Shown here piece after piece: positions 3,869 to 63,697 of a stretch of DNA of 64,000 bases. The notes beneath the pieces were generated by a model. It had not been told where the DNA came from, did not search any database, and saw nothing but the letters and a program-made list of their open reading frames with translations. This stretch comes from Micrococcaceae bacterium RIT 802 (GTDB taxonomy: Bacteria > Actinomycetota > Actinomycetes > Actinomycetales > Micrococcaceae). Every line of letters starts with the position of its first letter. Positions within the stretch are counted from its first letter, which is position 1. The stretch is taken from contig JAFEMX010000014.1 in NCBI GenBank assembly GCA_016892645.1, forward strand, positions 1-64,000, given 5' to 3'. The position numbers were made by a program, and so were the translations under genes.

Positions 3869-3905
3869 TCGGCGGATCCGGGCACGACGGCGATGGCCGG
3901 GACAC

Positions 3906-4035
3906 GATGAAGGCCCCGGCTTGGGGGAAAGCCGGGGCCCTGATTCATCACTCGCACCTTTGAGGTAGTCACCACTCTAGGCAGCCAACCTAGGTGCCGG
4001 CTGTCAGTGGCCGGTGCATTCCCCGGCAGTCCCCA
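3906..4035 (+). repeat. Structured intergenic repeat, copy A
   Basis: This is the first of four similar elements in the left part of the window. A long hairpin pairs GATGAAGGCCCCGGCTT (3906-3922) with AAGCCGGGGCC (3929-3939) and, after a short bulge, TTCATC (3944-3949). Then comes the invariant linker ACTCGC and a small hairpin ACCT-TTG-AGGT (3956-3966). Farther on, similarity with copy B continues through a CTAGG...CCTAGG stretch and a GCCGGCTGT block to about 4035. It sits between convergent genes, so the first hairpin could terminate transcription from either side. The strand given is the one on which all copies read alike; the transcribed strand is unknown. Confidence 0.6.
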
Positions 4036-8385: not shown

Positions 8386-8393
8386 CCGGACAT

Positions 8394-8525
8394 GATGAAG
8401 GCCCCAGCCGGGGGGACGGCTGGGGCCTCTTTTTCATCACTCGCACCTTGATGAGGTGCTTTAAACACTAGGGGCCGAAGCTTGGAACCGGCTGTACGCG
8501 CCGTGGGTATTCGCCCGGTATCCCC
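8394..8525 (+). repeat. Structured intergenic repeat, copy B
   Basis: This copy has a perfect ten-base stem GGCCCCAGCC/GGCTGGGGCC (8400-8409 with 8418-8427) extended by GATGAA (8394-8399) and TTCATC (8433-8438), with a T-rich bulge TCTTT between. The linker ACTCGC and a second hairpin GCACCT/AGGTGC (8443-8448 with 8454-8459) follow. Downstream the block CTAGGGGCCGAAGCTTGG is nearly shared with copy D, and ACCGGCTGT is shared with copy A. It lies between the convergent LysR and AI-2E genes. The loop of the first hairpin is a run of six Gs, thus six Cs on the other strand. Confidence 0.62.
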
Positions 8526-14003: not shown

Positions 14004-15101
14004 CTACGCGGTGGCCGCCAGCACGTCCCGGGCCAGCCGGTGGCCCACGAGCGGGCCCATGGTCAGGCCGGCCGGACCGAACCCGGCGTTGGCCCAGACG
14101 CCCGCTGACAGTTGGCGGGCTATCGGCAGGGCCTCGGGGCTCATCGGGCGGATGCCGACGCGCGTTTCCACCACGGTGGCCTCGGCCAGCCCCGGGGCCA
14201 GCTCCAGCACGCCATCGAACAGCTTGCGCTGCCCGGCAGCGGTGCGCCGCACGTCGATGCCGGATCCGTCCTCCCGGGTGGCCCCGAAGACCAGCCGGGA
14301 GCCGCCGAAGGCGACCATGTAGACGTCGGAGAGCGGGTGCACGCTGGGCCAGTCGTCCGTGGTGTGGCCGTCGGCGCACAGATGCAGGATCTGGCCGCGC
14401 TGGGGCACGACGCCGGTGTGCACTCCCAGCGGGGCGAGGACCTGGTCGGTCCAGGCCCCCGCGGCGACGACCACGGCAGTCGGCGACACCACCCGGCCGG
14501 CGGCGACGATGTCCGGGGCGCCGGACGTCGTCCGGGAGGGAACCAGCGTGGCTTCCGCCTCGATGAGCTCGGCGCCGCAGGCCAGGGCGCCGCGGATCAG
14601 CCCGTCACGCAGTGACCGCCCGTCGACCCGTGCGGCTCCACCGAGGTGCAGGCCCGACAGCCCCGGGCGCAGGGGCGGGAAGAGGCCGTGTGCCTCCTCG
14701 GCGTCCACCCGGCGCAGGGTGCCGGCCACCGCGGAACCGGTGATCCGCGCCGAGATCCGTTCCGCCGTCGTGCGCAGGAGGTCTTCGTCGTCGTGGACGA
14801 TGAGGCCGCCGGTGACGCGGTAGTCGACGTCGTCCACGCCCACGGCGGCCAGCTGCTCCAAGAGCCGCGGGTAGTATTCGGCGCCGGCGGCGTAGAGACC
14901 GTAGAACGGGCCCTCGCTGCGGGTGGCCCACGGCATGATGATGCCGGCGCCGGCCGGGGTCGCGGCACCGGTGCTGGCCGCGTCCACGAGGGTGACACGG
15001 ACGCCGGCACGGGCCAGGGCGAAGGCGGTGGACGCGCCGGCGACTCCGGAACCGATGACCGCGACATGCGGTGTGGTCTTCACGGGCAGGTCGGTGCTCA
15101 T
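14004..15101 (-). CDS. FAD-dependent oxidoreductase (DadA/glycine oxidase-like)
   Basis: This 365-residue flavoenzyme of the DAO family has the N-terminal dinucleotide motif VAVIGSGVAGASTAFALA with the acidic strand end VTLVDAAS, and the C-terminal FAD motif FGPAGLTMGPLVGH. It would oxidise a secondary or primary amine, for example a D-amino acid, glycine or N-methyl amino acid. Its start overlaps the sulfatase stop as ATGA, so it is translated from the same message as a choline-sulfatase-like enzyme. That link hints at oxidation of an amine released from a sulfated or related precursor. The exact substrate is unknown. Confidence 0.87.
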   Translation of the reverse strand: MSTDLPVKTTPHVAVIGSGVAGASTAFALARAGVRVTLVDAASTGAATPAGAGIIMPWATRSEGPFYGLYAAGAEYYPRLLEQLAAVGVDDVDYRVTGGLIVHDDEDLLRTTAERISARITGSAVAGTLRRVDAEEAHGLFPPLRPGLSGLHLGGAARVDGRSLRDGLIRGALACGAELIEAEATLVPSRTTSGAPDIVAAGRVVSPTAVVVAAGAWTDQVLAPLGVHTGVVPQRGQILHLCADGHTTDDWPSVHPLSDVYMVAFGGSRLVFGATREDGSGIDVRRTAAGQRKLFDGVLELAPGLAEATVVETRVGIRPMSPEALPIARQLSAGVWANAGFGPAGLTMGPLVGHRLARDVLAATA

Positions 15102-16675
15102 CGTGGGGTGTCCGCGATCTTCCCGTACTCCAGGGCTCCCCAGAAGTCACCGCGGACGTAGCGTTGTTCGGGCTCCGGGTTGAAATCCCACGGGTGGGTC
15201 TTGCCCCGTCGGAGTGCTTCGGCCACCAGGCGACGCCGCTCCTGGCTGGCCACGACGTCCGCTTCCAGCTTCTCGACGCCGTACCGGGTGTCCAGCTCCT
15301 GGCGCAGCAGGTGAACCAACCCGGCATGTTCGGTCCCCGAGGCCAGGTTCCGCAGCTCATGCGGGTCGGTGTCGAGGTCGAAGAGCTGGTCCGGATCCCC
15401 GGGGCAGACGATGTACTTGTAGCGCCCACGCACCAGCGTGAGCTGGGGACGGTAGGTGCCTTCGGCAAGGTATTCGATGACGACATCGCGATCCTGCGGT
15501 CCTGCCTGGCCGGCCGTCTCGCGGCGTGCGGACTCCAGCAGGGACAGCCCGTCCCGACCGGATGGCGCCTGGCACTGGTTCGTTGCCCTCTCGGTCCGGG
15601 GCACGGCTTCGACGTCGGGTGCCCCGGAGAGTTCCAGCAGGGTGGGCATCAGATCCACCAGCGAGACGGGGTTGGCGAACCGCCCCCGGGGGATCAACCG
15701 CTCCGGGCCGTGGAGGATGAGCGGCACGCGGGAGGATTCCTCGTACGGCGACATCTTGTACCAGAGGCCCTTCTCGCCCAGCATGTCGCCGTGGTCGCTG
15801 GTGACGATGATGACGGTGTTCTCCGACAAACCCAGGTCCTCCAGGCGCGCACGGATGCGGCCCACGTGGTCGTCGATGTAGCTGACCGCCGCGTAGTAGG
15901 CCCGGCGGGCCCGCCGGACCTCTTCGCTGCCCGGAACGCGCTGGTCGAACCCACTCATCACCCGGAGCCGGTGGGTATGCGGGTCCTCCGTCGAACTGGG
16001 GACCTGCGGATGTTTCGGGGACGGGATCTCAACATCTGCAAAGCGGTCCCAGTGCTCGCGCGGCGGTTCGTACGGGTCGTGGGGGTGGATGAAGCTGGCC
16101 ACCACCAGGAAGGGGAGGTCCTCACCGGCAGCCTGATTAGCCCTGGCCCGGTCGTTGAGATGCCGCAGGGCGCGGAATCCCACCTCATCGTCGAAGTCCT
16201 GCTGGACCGTGGCCTTGGAGACGCCCGCGGTGAAGACGGCGTCGGCGTCGTGATACCACTGCAGCCGTTCACCCAGGGGCCGCTGCCAGTCCGGGACCAT
16301 GTCCAGGTCCGCCGGGTAGACATCGGTGGTCAGGCGCTCCTCGAACCCGTGCTGCTGGTCGGGCCCGATGAAATGCATCCGCCCGACCAGGGCCGTGTGG
16401 TAGCCGCCGGCCCGCAGGTGGTGGGCAAAGGTCGGCGTCGTGGCCAGGAAGTCGTCGCCGTTGTCGTAGCAGCCGATGTCCGAGGGCATCCGGCCGGTCA
16501 TCATGGAGGCCCGCGAGGGCGCGCACAACGGGGTGTTGCAGTACGCTCGGTCGAACACGGCGCCGTCTGCGGCCAACCCATCGATGTGAGGTGTCCTCGC
16601 GGCTTCGTCCCCGTAGGCGCCCAACGCCTGCGCTGCCATCTGGTCAGCTTGGATCACGACGATATTGGGTTTCAC
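15098..16675 (-). CDS. Sulfatase, choline-sulfatase-like
   Basis: This 525-residue type I sulfatase hydrolyses a sulfate ester using formylglycine. The site Cys51-Ala-Pro-Ser-Arg is intact (NTPLCAPSRASMMTGR), as are the metal-site elements IQADQM near the start and TSDHGDMLGEKGLWYKM. The stretch ALVGRMHFIGPDQQHGFEER and the following TTDVYPADLD read like choline-sulfatases (BetC) rather than arylsulfatases. It has no signal peptide, so it acts in the cytoplasm. The start is GTG (16675), preceded by GGAGAGGA. It is co-translated with the flavin oxidase and divergent, 45 bases away, from the formylglycine-generating enzyme needed to activate it. Confidence 0.88.
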   Translation of the reverse strand: MKPNIVVIQADQMAAQALGAYGDEAARTPHIDGLAADGAVFDRAYCNTPLCAPSRASMMTGRMPSDIGCYDNGDDFLATTPTFAHHLRAGGYHTALVGRMHFIGPDQQHGFEERLTTDVYPADLDMVPDWQRPLGERLQWYHDADAVFTAGVSKATVQQDFDDEVGFRALRHLNDRARANQAAGEDLPFLVVASFIHPHDPYEPPREHWDRFADVEIPSPKHPQVPSSTEDPHTHRLRVMSGFDQRVPGSEEVRRARRAYYAAVSYIDDHVGRIRARLEDLGLSENTVIIVTSDHGDMLGEKGLWYKMSPYEESSRVPLILHGPERLIPRGRFANPVSLVDLMPTLLELSGAPDVEAVPRTERATNQCQAPSGRDGLSLLESARRETAGQAGPQDRDVVIEYLAEGTYRPQLTLVRGRYKYIVCPGDPDQLFDLDTDPHELRNLASGTEHAGLVHLLRQELDTRYGVEKLEADVVASQERRRLVAEALRRGKTHPWDFNPEPEQRYVRGDFWGALEYGKIADTPR

Positions 16676-16720
16676 GATCTAGGATTCCTCTCCATTGATT
16701 CCGACTGAGGAGCTTGAAAA

Positions 16721-17674
16721 ATGAGTGCATGCTGCGGGCCCGCGCGGGACGCTGCCTCCGGCACCCCGAAGGGACCGGCCATGGCCTCCGGAACGGGATC
16801 GCTTCCGGGGGTGGGAGACGAACGGCAACGTCTGGAACGACTTGCCGGGCCAGCTCCGCAGCAGCTGCAGCTCGTGGGTCTTCCCGGCGGCACGTTCCGC
16901 AGCGGTAGCGAGGATTCCGGAGCTTATCCGGAGGACGGCGAGGGGCCCGTGCGGAAGGCCTCGGTGGGACCCTTCGCGATCGGCGCGACCACGGTGACCA
17001 TCGCCGAGTTCGCGGTTTTCGTGGTGGACACCGGATATCGAACCGATGCGGAGCGGCACGGGGACTCGTTGGTCTTCGCCGGTCTGCTTCCGAAGGGCCT
17101 GCGGGATCGTTCGCCCGCGGTGTCGGCGACTCCCTGGTGGCGGCAAGTGGACGGTGCCTGCTGGTTTCGGCCCGAGGGTCCGGGATCGTCCGTCGATCGC
17201 CGTGCCGATCATCCGGTCACCCATGTCTCCCGATTCGACGCGGAGGCCTACGCCCGGTGGGTGGGGGCCCGGCTTCCGACGGAGACCGAGTGGGAGTACG
17301 CGGCCCGCGGTGGTCTCGACCAGCAACCGTATCCGTGGGGCAGCGTCATGGAGCCCTCGGGACGGCCCCGCATGAACGTCTTCACCGGCGAATTTCCGGA
17401 CAAACCCAGCGGACCGGTCGGCACCGAGCCGGCGTCGTCGTTCCCTCCCAATGCCTATGGCCTGTACAACATGACCGGCAACGTGTGGGAATGGACCTCG
17501 AGCCGGGCCAGCGCCGGCGATGCCCGGCCCGTGCTCCGCGGTGGATCGTATATGTGCCACGCCTCCTACTGTAGGAGGTACCGCACGTCGGCACGTACCT
17601 TCTCCACGGCTGAGACGTCCCTCGGGCACACGGGGTTCCGGCTCGCGCTGACCACCGGCCGGGGCCGAGGTTAA
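16721..17674 (+). CDS. Formylglycine-generating enzyme (sulfatase-modifying factor)
   Basis: This 317-residue enzyme converts the sulfatase active-site cysteine to formylglycine using copper and oxygen. The redox cysteines are Cys279 and Cys284 (GGSYMCHASYCRRYR), with the spacing of five found in human and Streptomyces FGE. Other family marks are TVTIAEFAVFV, GGLDQQPYPWG, NAYGLYNMTGNVWEW and the closing GHTGFRLAL. The first 45 residues, which include an early Cys-Cys pair, are poorly conserved. The ATG at 16721 follows GAGGAG at 16706-16711. Divergent pairing with the sulfatase makes a self-contained maturation unit. Confidence 0.93.
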   Translation: MSACCGPARDAASGTPKGPAMASGTGSLPGVGDERQRLERLAGPAPQQLQLVGLPGGTFRSGSEDSGAYPEDGEGPVRKASVGPFAIGATTVTIAEFAVFVVDTGYRTDAERHGDSLVFAGLLPKGLRDRSPAVSATPWWRQVDGACWFRPEGPGSSVDRRADHPVTHVSRFDAEAYARWVGARLPTETEWEYAARGGLDQQPYPWGSVMEPSGRPRMNVFTGEFPDKPSGPVGTEPASSFPPNAYGLYNMTGNVWEWTSSRASAGDARPVLRGGSYMCHASYCRRYRTSARTFSTAETSLGHTGFRLALTTGRGRG

Positions 17675-17676
17675 AT

Positions 17677-17812
17677 GAATGAAGCACCGGCCATAGCGGA
17701 CAAGGAGGCGACAAACCGCTATAACCGGTGCTTCTGATCACTCGCACCTTTGAGAAGGTTCCTTCAGCCTAACCAGCGATCCTTGGAGCCACCTGTGCGT
17801 CCGGTGTCAGGT
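17677..17812 (+). repeat. Structured intergenic repeat, copy C
   Basis: This copy pairs GAAGCACCGG (17681-17690) with CCGGTGCTTC (17725-17734), with a nested stem ATAGCGG/CCGCTAT inside. The shared linker ATCACTCGC follows, then a second hairpin ACCTT-TGAG-AAGGT (17746-17759), which is one pair longer and has a different loop from copies A and B. After it come CCTAACC and CCTTGGAGCC, matching the positions of CTAGG...CTTGG in copy B. It lies between the convergent FGE gene and the small acidic protein gene. The stem sequence differs completely from A and B while pairing is kept. Confidence 0.58.
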
Positions 17813-17831: not shown

Positions 17832-18002
17832 TCAGTAGTTCGACGGCGGATCCGAGGCGGGGAAGGACTCCTCTTCCCACTCGTCCACGCGCTCGTCGTC
17901 GTGGTCATGCTGGACCCGGGCCGCCTTCGTGGCCGCATCCTCGGTGTCCTCCGGACCGACGGCTGCGCCGTCGTCGGGCTGCTCGAATGGGTTCTCGCTC
18001 AT
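17832..18002 (-). CDS. Small acidic protein with SFPASDPPS C-terminal motif
   Basis: This 56-residue protein is too short for most gene finders. It is strongly acidic, starts MSENPFEQPDD, and ends EEESFPASDPPSNY. The ESFPASDPPS motif recurs at the C-terminus of many small or short bacterial proteins of unknown function. GAGGAGG lies nine bases before the ATG, a near-ideal ribosome site, which argues for real translation. It has no hydrophobic segment. It is flanked by two copies of the structured repeat (C downstream, D upstream). No function is assigned. Confidence 0.75.
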   Translation of the reverse strand: MSENPFEQPDDGAAVGPEDTEDAATKAARVQHDHDDERVDEWEEESFPASDPPSNY

Positions 18003-18103
18003 GGCATCCTCCTCGTTGACGTGCCTACGATCCCAGTCTCGCCCCGAACCGGTGGCCTGTCGAGGGCGGGCTGTCGCGGCGGTGCCGCCGGCCTTAACGA
18101 GAC

Positions 18104-18230
18104 GAGCACCGGCTGGATCGATAGTTGGGGGGAATCATCGATCAACCAGCCGGTGCTCTCATCACTCGCACCTCCATGAGGTACTTAAGAACAATAAGGG
18201 GCGAAGCTTGGCGTTCGCTGGAAACGACGG
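18104..18230 (+). repeat. Structured intergenic repeat, copy D
   Basis: This copy pairs GAGCACCGGCTGG (18104-18116) perfectly with CCAGCCGGTGCTC (18146-18158); inside it ATCGAT pairs with ATCGAT around a G-rich loop that contains six Gs. The linker TCATCACTCGC and a second hairpin ACCTC-CAT-GAGGT (18170-18182) follow. The tail AAGGGGCGAAGCTTGG matches copy B closely. Unlike the other copies it lies between divergent genes, upstream of both the small acidic protein and the alpha/beta hydrolase, so it cannot merely be a convergent terminator here. Confidence 0.6.
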
Positions 18231-18290
18231 CAACGCGAAGTGTGAAGGGACGGTTTACTTCCCGCGCCGGGCCGCGGATAGCCTGAAACC

Positions 18291-19067
18291 ATGGCCGAAA
18301 CACGCAATCCCCTGGACGGGACCACCATCTCCTACGACGTGGCGGGGGAGGGCCCCGCGGTCGTCCTGTTGCACGGTTCGGCACTCTCGCGGGCGATCTG
18401 GCGCGGCCTCGGATACGTGAGGGCACTCGACGGCTTCACGGTGGTGCGGATCGACCTGCGCGGGCACGGGCGCAGCGGCAAGCCCCACGAGTCCGGGGCC
18501 TACGCGATGGACCTGCTGGTCGCCGATGTCCTGGCGGTCATGGATGCCGAGCAGCTGGCCGGCGCCGCCGTCGTCGGCTACTCGTTCGGTTCGCGGGTCG
18601 GGTTCTCGCTGGCGGCGACGGCACCGGGGCGGGTGGAGAAGCTGGTCACCCTGGGCGGGACGTTCAGGCCGCAGTCGGGCCAGGTGGCGAAGGTGTTCTT
18701 CGACGGCTACCTCGATGCCCTCCGCACCGGGGGGATGCGGGCCTTTGTCGACGGGCAGCGGCTGGACCCGCAGACCCGGGCCGCCTTCATGGCCAACGAC
18801 TCCGAGGCCCTGGTCGCCTACTTCGAGCACACCGAGGTCGAGCCCGGACTCGATGAATCCGTGCTGCCCGACCTCGGCCTTCCGGCGCTGCTGATGGCCG
18901 GGACCCGGGACCGGGAACGCTACCTCGACTCGCGCCGGGCCGCCGAGCTGATGCCCGACGCCCGGTTCGTGCCCCTGGAGGGGCGGACCCATGGTTCGAC
19001 CCTTTTCCCCGCGGACGAGGTGCTGGCCGAGATGCTCCCGTTCCTGCGCGACCGGACGGCCTCCTGA
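18291..19067 (+). CDS. Alpha/beta fold hydrolase
   Basis: This 258-residue cytoplasmic hydrolase has an oxyanion-hole motif LLHGSALSRAIW, the DLRGHGRSGKP loop and the nucleophile elbow GYSFGS with Ser98. The acid is probably in MAGTRDRER, and the histidine is in GRTHGSTLF near the C-terminus. The ATG at 18291 is the only well-placed start. It ends exactly where the convergent acyl-CoA dehydrogenase ends, with no intervening base. Substrate is unknown; the family includes esterases, lactonases and haloperoxidase-like enzymes. Confidence 0.87.
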   Translation: MAETRNPLDGTTISYDVAGEGPAVVLLHGSALSRAIWRGLGYVRALDGFTVVRIDLRGHGRSGKPHESGAYAMDLLVADVLAVMDAEQLAGAAVVGYSFGSRVGFSLAATAPGRVEKLVTLGGTFRPQSGQVAKVFFDGYLDALRTGGMRAFVDGQRLDPQTRAAFMANDSEALVAYFEHTEVEPGLDESVLPDLGLPALLMAGTRDRERYLDSRRAAELMPDARFVPLEGRTHGSTLFPADEVLAEMLPFLRDRTAS

Positions 19068-63454: not shown

Positions 63455-63487
63455 GGAGGGGTGTCCGCGAGGGCACACGCCAATGAC

Positions 63488-63697
63488 ATGCGGCGGGAGA
63501 GTCCCGTTCAGAACCACTGGCGGGCGCCGTAGGAGCAATACCCTCCCCGGGAATCTCTCAGGCATCCGTACCGCCGCGCAGAGGCAACTCTGGAAAGAAG
63601 CAGCACCCCTCGGGGTGCACTCACCGACGGTGCAAGCCACGTCCGGGACACCGGGCACGGCGGAATCTCTCAGGTCCAATACAGAGTCGGGGAGGAA
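63488..63697 (+). promoter_or_regulatory. Tandem glycine riboswitch (gcvT element)
   Basis: Two consecutive glycine aptamers are visible. The first spans GCGGGAGAGTCC, CGCCGTAGGAGCAA, GGGAATCTCTCAGGCA, and AGAGGCAACTCTGGAAAGAAGCA (read in two parts). The second has CTCACCGACGGTGCAAGCC, a CCGG stem, GGAATCTCTCAGG, and ends with ACAGAGTCGGGGAGGAA. These conserved blocks are diagnostic of the gcvT element, in which glycine binding switches on the glycine cleavage system. The GGAGGAA at its end is more than 50 bases before the gcvP ATG, so control is probably at transcription rather than at that ribosome site. Confidence 0.93.

Follow-up and report, generated by a model that had tools for sequence, protein, structure and literature searches.

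A hairpin between divergent genes of Micrococcaceae bacterium RIT 802 probably belongs to a seven-copy, apparently uncatalogued set of small regulatory RNA genes

Introduction

What is a terminator-like hairpin doing between two divergent genes? The question is raised by copy D of a repeat found in a 64,000-nucleotide stretch of the Micrococcaceae bacterium RIT 802 genome (contig JAFEMX010000014.1, positions 1 to 64,000; the whole stretch is hereafter called the window). An earlier note on this DNA had argued that D must be more than a terminator and had suggested an independently transcribed RNA or a leader element. We compared D with its sister copies in the window, in its own genome and in related bacteria. 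Hairpin D, read on the minus strand, probably represents one of seven copies of a small regulatory RNA gene. Its family is near-universal in Arthrobacter, Micrococcus, Kocuria, Rothia and their relatives, bacteria in which small RNAs are little known, and it makes clear predictions regarding strand, RNA ends, loop bait and shared promoter repeats.

Results

The stem of D pairs positions 18104-18116 with 18146-18158 in 13 base pairs without a mismatch and, with its C-rich loop, forms a terminator-like hairpin on the minus strand (18104-18158). The palindrome, taken on either strand, folds with -50.5 kcal/mol (z -4.84), and none of 200 shuffled sequences was equally stable. On one side lies a small acidic protein gene (17832-18002, minus strand) coding for 56 amino acids and ending in ...EWEEESFPASDPPSNY, on the other an alpha/beta hydrolase gene divergent from D (18291-19067, plus strand; Pfam Abhydrolase). 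The perfect stem between divergent genes is thus as previously described, and the coordinates also place copy C on the far side of the same small gene, as had been claimed. The predicted RNA of copy C (17671-17759, minus strand; ~88 nucleotides) has the 5' hairpin ACCUUCUCAAAGGU and an apical loop with the anti-Shine-Dalgarno core CCUCCUU (17702-17708, minus strand) and is preceded by a -10 hexamer, TAGGCT (17766-17771, minus strand). Convergent with C is a formylglycine-generating-enzyme-like gene (16721-17674, plus strand), which adjoins it together with a sulfatase gene matching a choline-sulfatase C-terminal domain (15098-17674 for the two).

Conservation of D extends for ~75 bases past the stem, on one side only, and this flank reads as a promoter followed by a 5' leader when taken on the minus strand. 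The predicted RNA of ~88 nucleotides (18094-18182, minus strand) would have its 5' end at ~18182 and its 3' end at about the GUUAA located at 18094-18098. From 5' to 3' it comprises a 5' hairpin, the conserved linker GUGCGAGUGAU, a long hairpin with the loop AUUCCCCCCAAC, and GUUAA. The -10 hexamer TATTGT is found at 18191-18196 on the minus strand, and the region of the four upstream repeats, phased at 11 bp, was read from the sequence at 18204-18247 (minus strand). Here, box 1 (TTCACA) and box 3 (TTTCCAG) are recognizable and box 2 is poor, D having retained only two good repeats.

A 13-mer common to the copies, ATCACTCGCACCT, occurs exactly seven times in the 3.87-Mb genome, and the reversed pattern does not occur. 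Four of these exact matches lie in the window and represent copies A-D; with three mismatches allowed, the total in the window is at chance level. Copy A (3904-3966, minus strand; -10 TAGAGT at 3974-3979) and copy B (8391-8457, minus strand; -10 TAGTGT at 8465-8470) belong to the same small RNA family. Copies A-C share the layout of D, with repeats, -10, the leader ACCUCAUnAAGGUGCGAGUGAU that is conserved in the RNA genes, and a C-rich-loop hairpin, all on the minus strand and with one C-rich hairpin in each of A-D. Searching the own genome with 127 bases of D yielded, besides D itself, copy B and a similar stretch on another contig, and a strict repeat pattern found none of the own-genome copies. 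Our sequence-only model R1 (promoter plus leader, 89 rows) produced seven matches there, of which copy B is the best. In several genera, tandem copies are spaced ~163-175 nucleotides apart, each with its own -10 (L055, L066, L087, L093, L102, L128 and L038), and tandem second copies near proC carry the variant GGGTGCGAGTGAT. Elsewhere in the window, near-identical direct repeats are located beside ABC-transporter motifs (40643-40942/48712-49011, 95%; 41537-41606/46820-46889, 96%), which points to a recent duplication or to gene conversion.

Aligning the copies side by side revealed a stem that varies from copy to copy and one conserved flank, which reads as a promoter on the minus strand. A scan of public genomes with the pattern ATCACTCGCACCTN{1,3}TGAG gave at least 114 stretches, and the matches listed come mostly from Arthrobacter, Nesterenkonia, Glutamicibacter, Paeniglutamicibacter, Rothia, Kocuria, Micrococcus, Citricoccus and their kin. 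Among the retrieved loci we counted 163 distinct pattern places, having dropped those with less than 90 nucleotides of flank or with identical surroundings. A TANNNT motif is found 13-17 nucleotides upstream of CTCA on the RNA strand in 141 of them, at exactly -15 in 126 of those, although the 141 include at least one apparent chance match (L072, in a record titled Thiotrichaceae). The 22 places without the motif comprise 10 records titled as other bacteria, eight viral contigs, three loci without a listed title (L148, L161 and L162) and one Rothia aerolata locus (L096). With a relaxed finder we obtained 184 copies in 2.9 Mb, both strands included, and none in the same sequence reversed; after loci were added, the set grew to 229 copies. 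In this set, CA(G/A) peaks at -46, -35, -24 and -13 relative to the -10 (140, 131, 88 and 137 of 229 copies, respectively), a period of 11, and the upstream consensus is ATTCmCAG repeated every 11 bp. Direct repeats about one helical turn apart upstream of a -10 represent the layout of OmpR/PhoB-type sites, and across the 229 copies the upstream repeats are candidate sites of this type.

The predicted RNAs start with ACCUCAUnAAGGU, which may form a small hairpin, followed by GCGAGUGAU, behind which lie one or two long hairpins. In some copies of the Arthrobacter type (e.g. L057, L112 and L185), a C-run is found in the loops of two neighboring hairpins. The U-tracts are short (TTTAA, in D GTTAA), with TTT present in the expected stretch in 168 of 229 copies. 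We aligned D-type copies (27 rows, picked by stem motif with C-type copies set aside) and C-type copies (18 rows, leaving out L089, which runs into masked bases). Three of the 16 pairs in the D-type and five of the 19 pairs in the C-type alignment show two-sided changes. Cells with such changes number 22 for C-type (7.3 in shuffles) and 12 for D-type (4.2 in shuffles), a value that none of 500 shuffles reached in either case, and sliding the partner by 1-3 columns lowered the paired cells from 97-99% to 29-57%. Counting pairs with a change on both sides gave weak significance (32 and 16 of 500), and counting further pair types gave none (52 and 339 of 500 shuffles). The predicted stems, by these alignments, covary. 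We also asked whether the GUG of GAGUGAU might be coding: in 223 copies, its frame closes within 10 codons in 34 and stays open across the examined 120 nucleotides in 107. We reject this idea, because the +2 frame used as a control gives similar counts (36 closed, 101 open). The -10 and phased upstream repeats that each copy has for itself, together with stem covariation, support the earlier suggestion of an independently transcribed RNA, but on the minus strand, opposite to the one then assumed.

An apical loop containing CCCC or CCUCC is found on the RNA strand in 168 of 228 copies and on the antisense strand in 13 of 228. The 60 copies scored without a C-run loop are partly real misses, with apical loops such as UUCA or UUCG, and partly reflect the limit of the hairpin filter. 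The loop reads UUCCCCCC in D and (A/G)CCUCCUU in C. UCCCC occurs in the D-type loops of 12 of the 13 loci in which D and C bracket the small gene, and CCUCCUU in all 19 C-type RNAs, where 7-11 letters match the 16S 3' end. In seven of these 19 copies the CCUCCUU forms part of UCACCUCCUU, which corresponds to a portion of the 16S rRNA 3' tail. Four of 210 non-C-type copies share at least eight letters with this tail.

The exact pattern is present in 145 of 295 family genomes and 25 of 32 genera, the reversed control giving zero in every row. With model R1 (E≤0.01), 1-9 matches per genome are obtained in 166 of 178 family genomes, and each of the 32 genera is represented; matches near the training species are expected since R1 was trained on this bacterial family, yet it also reached genera missed by the exact pattern. 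One genus, g6, is counted through a single marginal match (E 0.007), and of the 12 family genomes negative for R1, nine belong to g6 and three to g3. When the order was scanned (198 genomes), R1 matched 14 genomes, 13 of them from the same family, the sole match outside it being marginal (E 6e-4) and confined to promoter positions. True copies also occur in records titled Acidobacteria MAG G2_11 (L071, beside proC) and Curtobacterium sp. S6 (L097), which are probably misbinned or misnamed. At gathering thresholds, Rfam 15 has no match for the RNA family in the window. Near C and D nothing of weight was found, the minus-strand matches of D (G2, PtaRNA1 and others) being far below thresholds, and seven other loci holding the family gave no match at E≤1. 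A glycine riboswitch (RF00504, 64.4 bits; 63484-63583, plus strand) is the only Rfam match at gathering thresholds in the window. No description of the family was found in a literature search that mostly covered papers free of subscription. With respect to Rfam 15 and these papers, the family appears to be uncatalogued; four small RNAs are reported for Arthrobacter oxidans KQ11 (PMC6696678).

We searched for the small acidic protein, which has no Pfam (E≤0.001) or NCBIfam (E≤1) family, in 120 family genomes and found it in 28. We retrieved 30 small-gene loci: 13 are flanked by D upstream and by C downstream, five have C only, one has D only and 11 have neither. The bracketing thus recurs in relatives, and in all 13 bracketed loci D and C lie on the strand of the gene, in the order D-gene-C. 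In the window's genus, both copies are present in three of three genomes; an apparent absence of D from two genus mates proved wrong, the exact pattern having missed copies that a relaxed search found in both. D, the small acidic gene and C form a conserved one-strand cassette, so that a common response served by the small protein and both RNAs is probable. This cassette is also the first clue to the small acidic protein.

Discussion

D could act on the small acidic gene as a 5' leader or attenuator, with transcription starting at the D promoter and ending at the hairpin unless termination is relieved. This is an unlikely reading. Of the 30 small-gene loci, 14 do have D ahead of the gene and in its orientation (13 with C, one without), a terminator-like hairpin lying in between, but the gene is also found with C alone (five loci) or with neither copy (11), and C, which has the same anatomy, sits downstream of it. 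A leader function, as the earlier note had allowed, is moreover unsupported as a general role because in 101 of 141 copies the RNA and its next downstream gene have opposite orientations, gene calls here being the rough output of a simple GC-based ORF picker.

It is very improbable that the elements are ordinary related terminators of plus-strand genes. A, B and C are located behind plus-strand gene ends, and TCTTTTTC follows the plus-strand arm of B, but no plus-strand gene end lies ahead of D, the best-conserved part is the leader and promoter on one side rather than the stem, and the fixed-place TANNNT and the 11-bp repeats would be left unexplained. We reject both the plus-strand terminator and the plus-strand leader reading of D since its conserved flank appears to be a minus-strand promoter, and D is, as had been argued, more than a terminator. 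We give almost no credence to a REP- or MITE-like mobile repeat with the bracketed gene as its passenger: the copies are dispersed and often in tandem (~165-200 nucleotides apart), but stems differ rather than being near-identical among copies of one genome, synteny is kept from genus to genus, with 47 of 141 copies divergent from proC (by the same rough gene calls), the D-gene-C order recurs, D as query has no match in a plasmid search, and none of 13 viral pattern matches is a true copy. Mobility of the bracketed gene, a point raised earlier, finds no support either: with gene order kept across genera and the same plasmid and viral results, the gene is, by the evidence here, apparently not mobile.

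We consider it likely, with good confidence, that D and its six paralogues are genes of trans-acting small RNAs, with their own promoters and with loops binding to G-rich ribosome-binding sites. The small-RNA reading builds on what the sequences show: their anatomy, strand and conservation, the covarying stems, the number of copies and the taxonomic range. From the sequences we infer how such RNAs would be transcribed, by which regulator, on which targets and with which sign they would act. The family RNAs, of ~65-110 nucleotides, would each arise from a promoter in which direct repeats with an 11-bp period precede a TANNNT -10. Transcription would start at or near ACCUC and end at the stable hairpin, and an OmpR/PhoB-type response regulator is probably in control. 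The apical loop would present a C-rich or anti-Shine-Dalgarno sequence, which most likely reduces the translation of several mRNAs by pairing with their G-rich ribosome-binding sites. These bacteria are not known to have Hfq. The RNAs of D and C would act in one response with the small acidic protein. The likeness of the C loop to the anti-Shine-Dalgarno tail of the ribosome makes direct competition for ribosome-binding sites testable. More tentatively, and as a possibility that we do not favor as it stands, this bacterial family as a whole may carry its own small-RNA system, with multiple copies that answer to one response regulator and whose loop bait is the main difference between paralogues; a 16S-3'-end-replica paralogue and a poly-C paralogue would bracket the small acidic protein in an RNA-protein-RNA module that throttles translation start.

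We compared the putative regulator sites to boxes reported for known response regulators. In Corynebacterium glutamicum, the PhoR box (CCTGTGAAaatCCTGTGAA) is an 8-bp repeat with a 3-bp linker, whose reverse complement, TTCACAGG-n3-TTCACAGG, resembles the family consensus ATTCmCAGnnAnCTCCCAG (PMC3353115). However, the repeat motif is not enriched in 30 pstS upstream regions of the family (mean best score 6.4 versus 6.7 in shuffles; two of 30 regions scoring at least 10 versus 50 of 600 shuffles). The box likeness is attractive, but we do not name PhoR as the regulator because the family's pstS promoters lack the motif. MtrA, judged by its published box only, is less likely, as RTAACAATttnRTAACAAT differs more from the family consensus than the PhoR box does (PMC3353115, PMC6265350).

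Several small RNA systems resemble the new family in part. The actinobacterial small RNA Ms1 is longer than the RNAs described here. It was found by synteny, is 6S-like and binds RNA polymerase (PMC9130861), whereas the new family has no Rfam match in the window or in seven other loci. The likeness to the CcsR/CcaF1 system of alphaproteobacteria lies in several like small RNAs being linked with a small-protein gene. CcsR loops carry CCUCC motifs. In Rhodobacter, reports on the CIN1 locus describe several homologous cuckoo RNAs, CcsR1-4, that are linked to the small-protein gene ccaF1, co-transcribed with this DUF1127 RNA-binding protein and processed from one precursor (PMC10253847, PMC8307010). 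Here, in contrast, each RNA comes with a separate -10 and hairpin, which disfavors one common precursor for the RNAs and the small gene, and the bracketed protein matches neither DUF1127 nor any other Pfam family (E≤0.001) or NCBIfam model (E≤1).

The closest worked case is the mycobacterial 6C RNA (RF01066), called B11 in Mycobacterium abscessus, which is also a small RNA of actinobacteria and also combines stable hairpins with C-runs in the loops. Either of the C-rich loops of B11 is enough for repression of a reporter that contains the eccB4 5' UTR with its six Gs (PMC10470900). By analogy, the C-rich loops of the new family would most likely bind G-rich ribosome-binding sites in the same manner. 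The family differs from 6C in its conserved leader, which was not seen in eight 6C loci examined, in the single C-rich hairpin of copies A-D and in the anti-Shine-Dalgarno loop of its C-type. Membership in 6C is rejected by model scans, which gave no match in the window (gathering threshold), none in the own genome and none in seven family loci (E≤1). At E≤0.001, 6C is found in two genera, g6 and g11; the idea that the two families exclude each other between genera was dropped because g11 holds both. Four g6 loci (L281, L284, L285 and L287) contain tandem hairpins matching 6C; in three of them, the C-rich loops and the match lie on opposite strands. Strict 11-bp repeats, missing from seven of the 6C loci, lie in the eighth, L211 (relative G105, 1500-1613), directly before a 6C-like RNA (44.6 bits; cut-off 47), a hint that one regulator may serve both RNA families.
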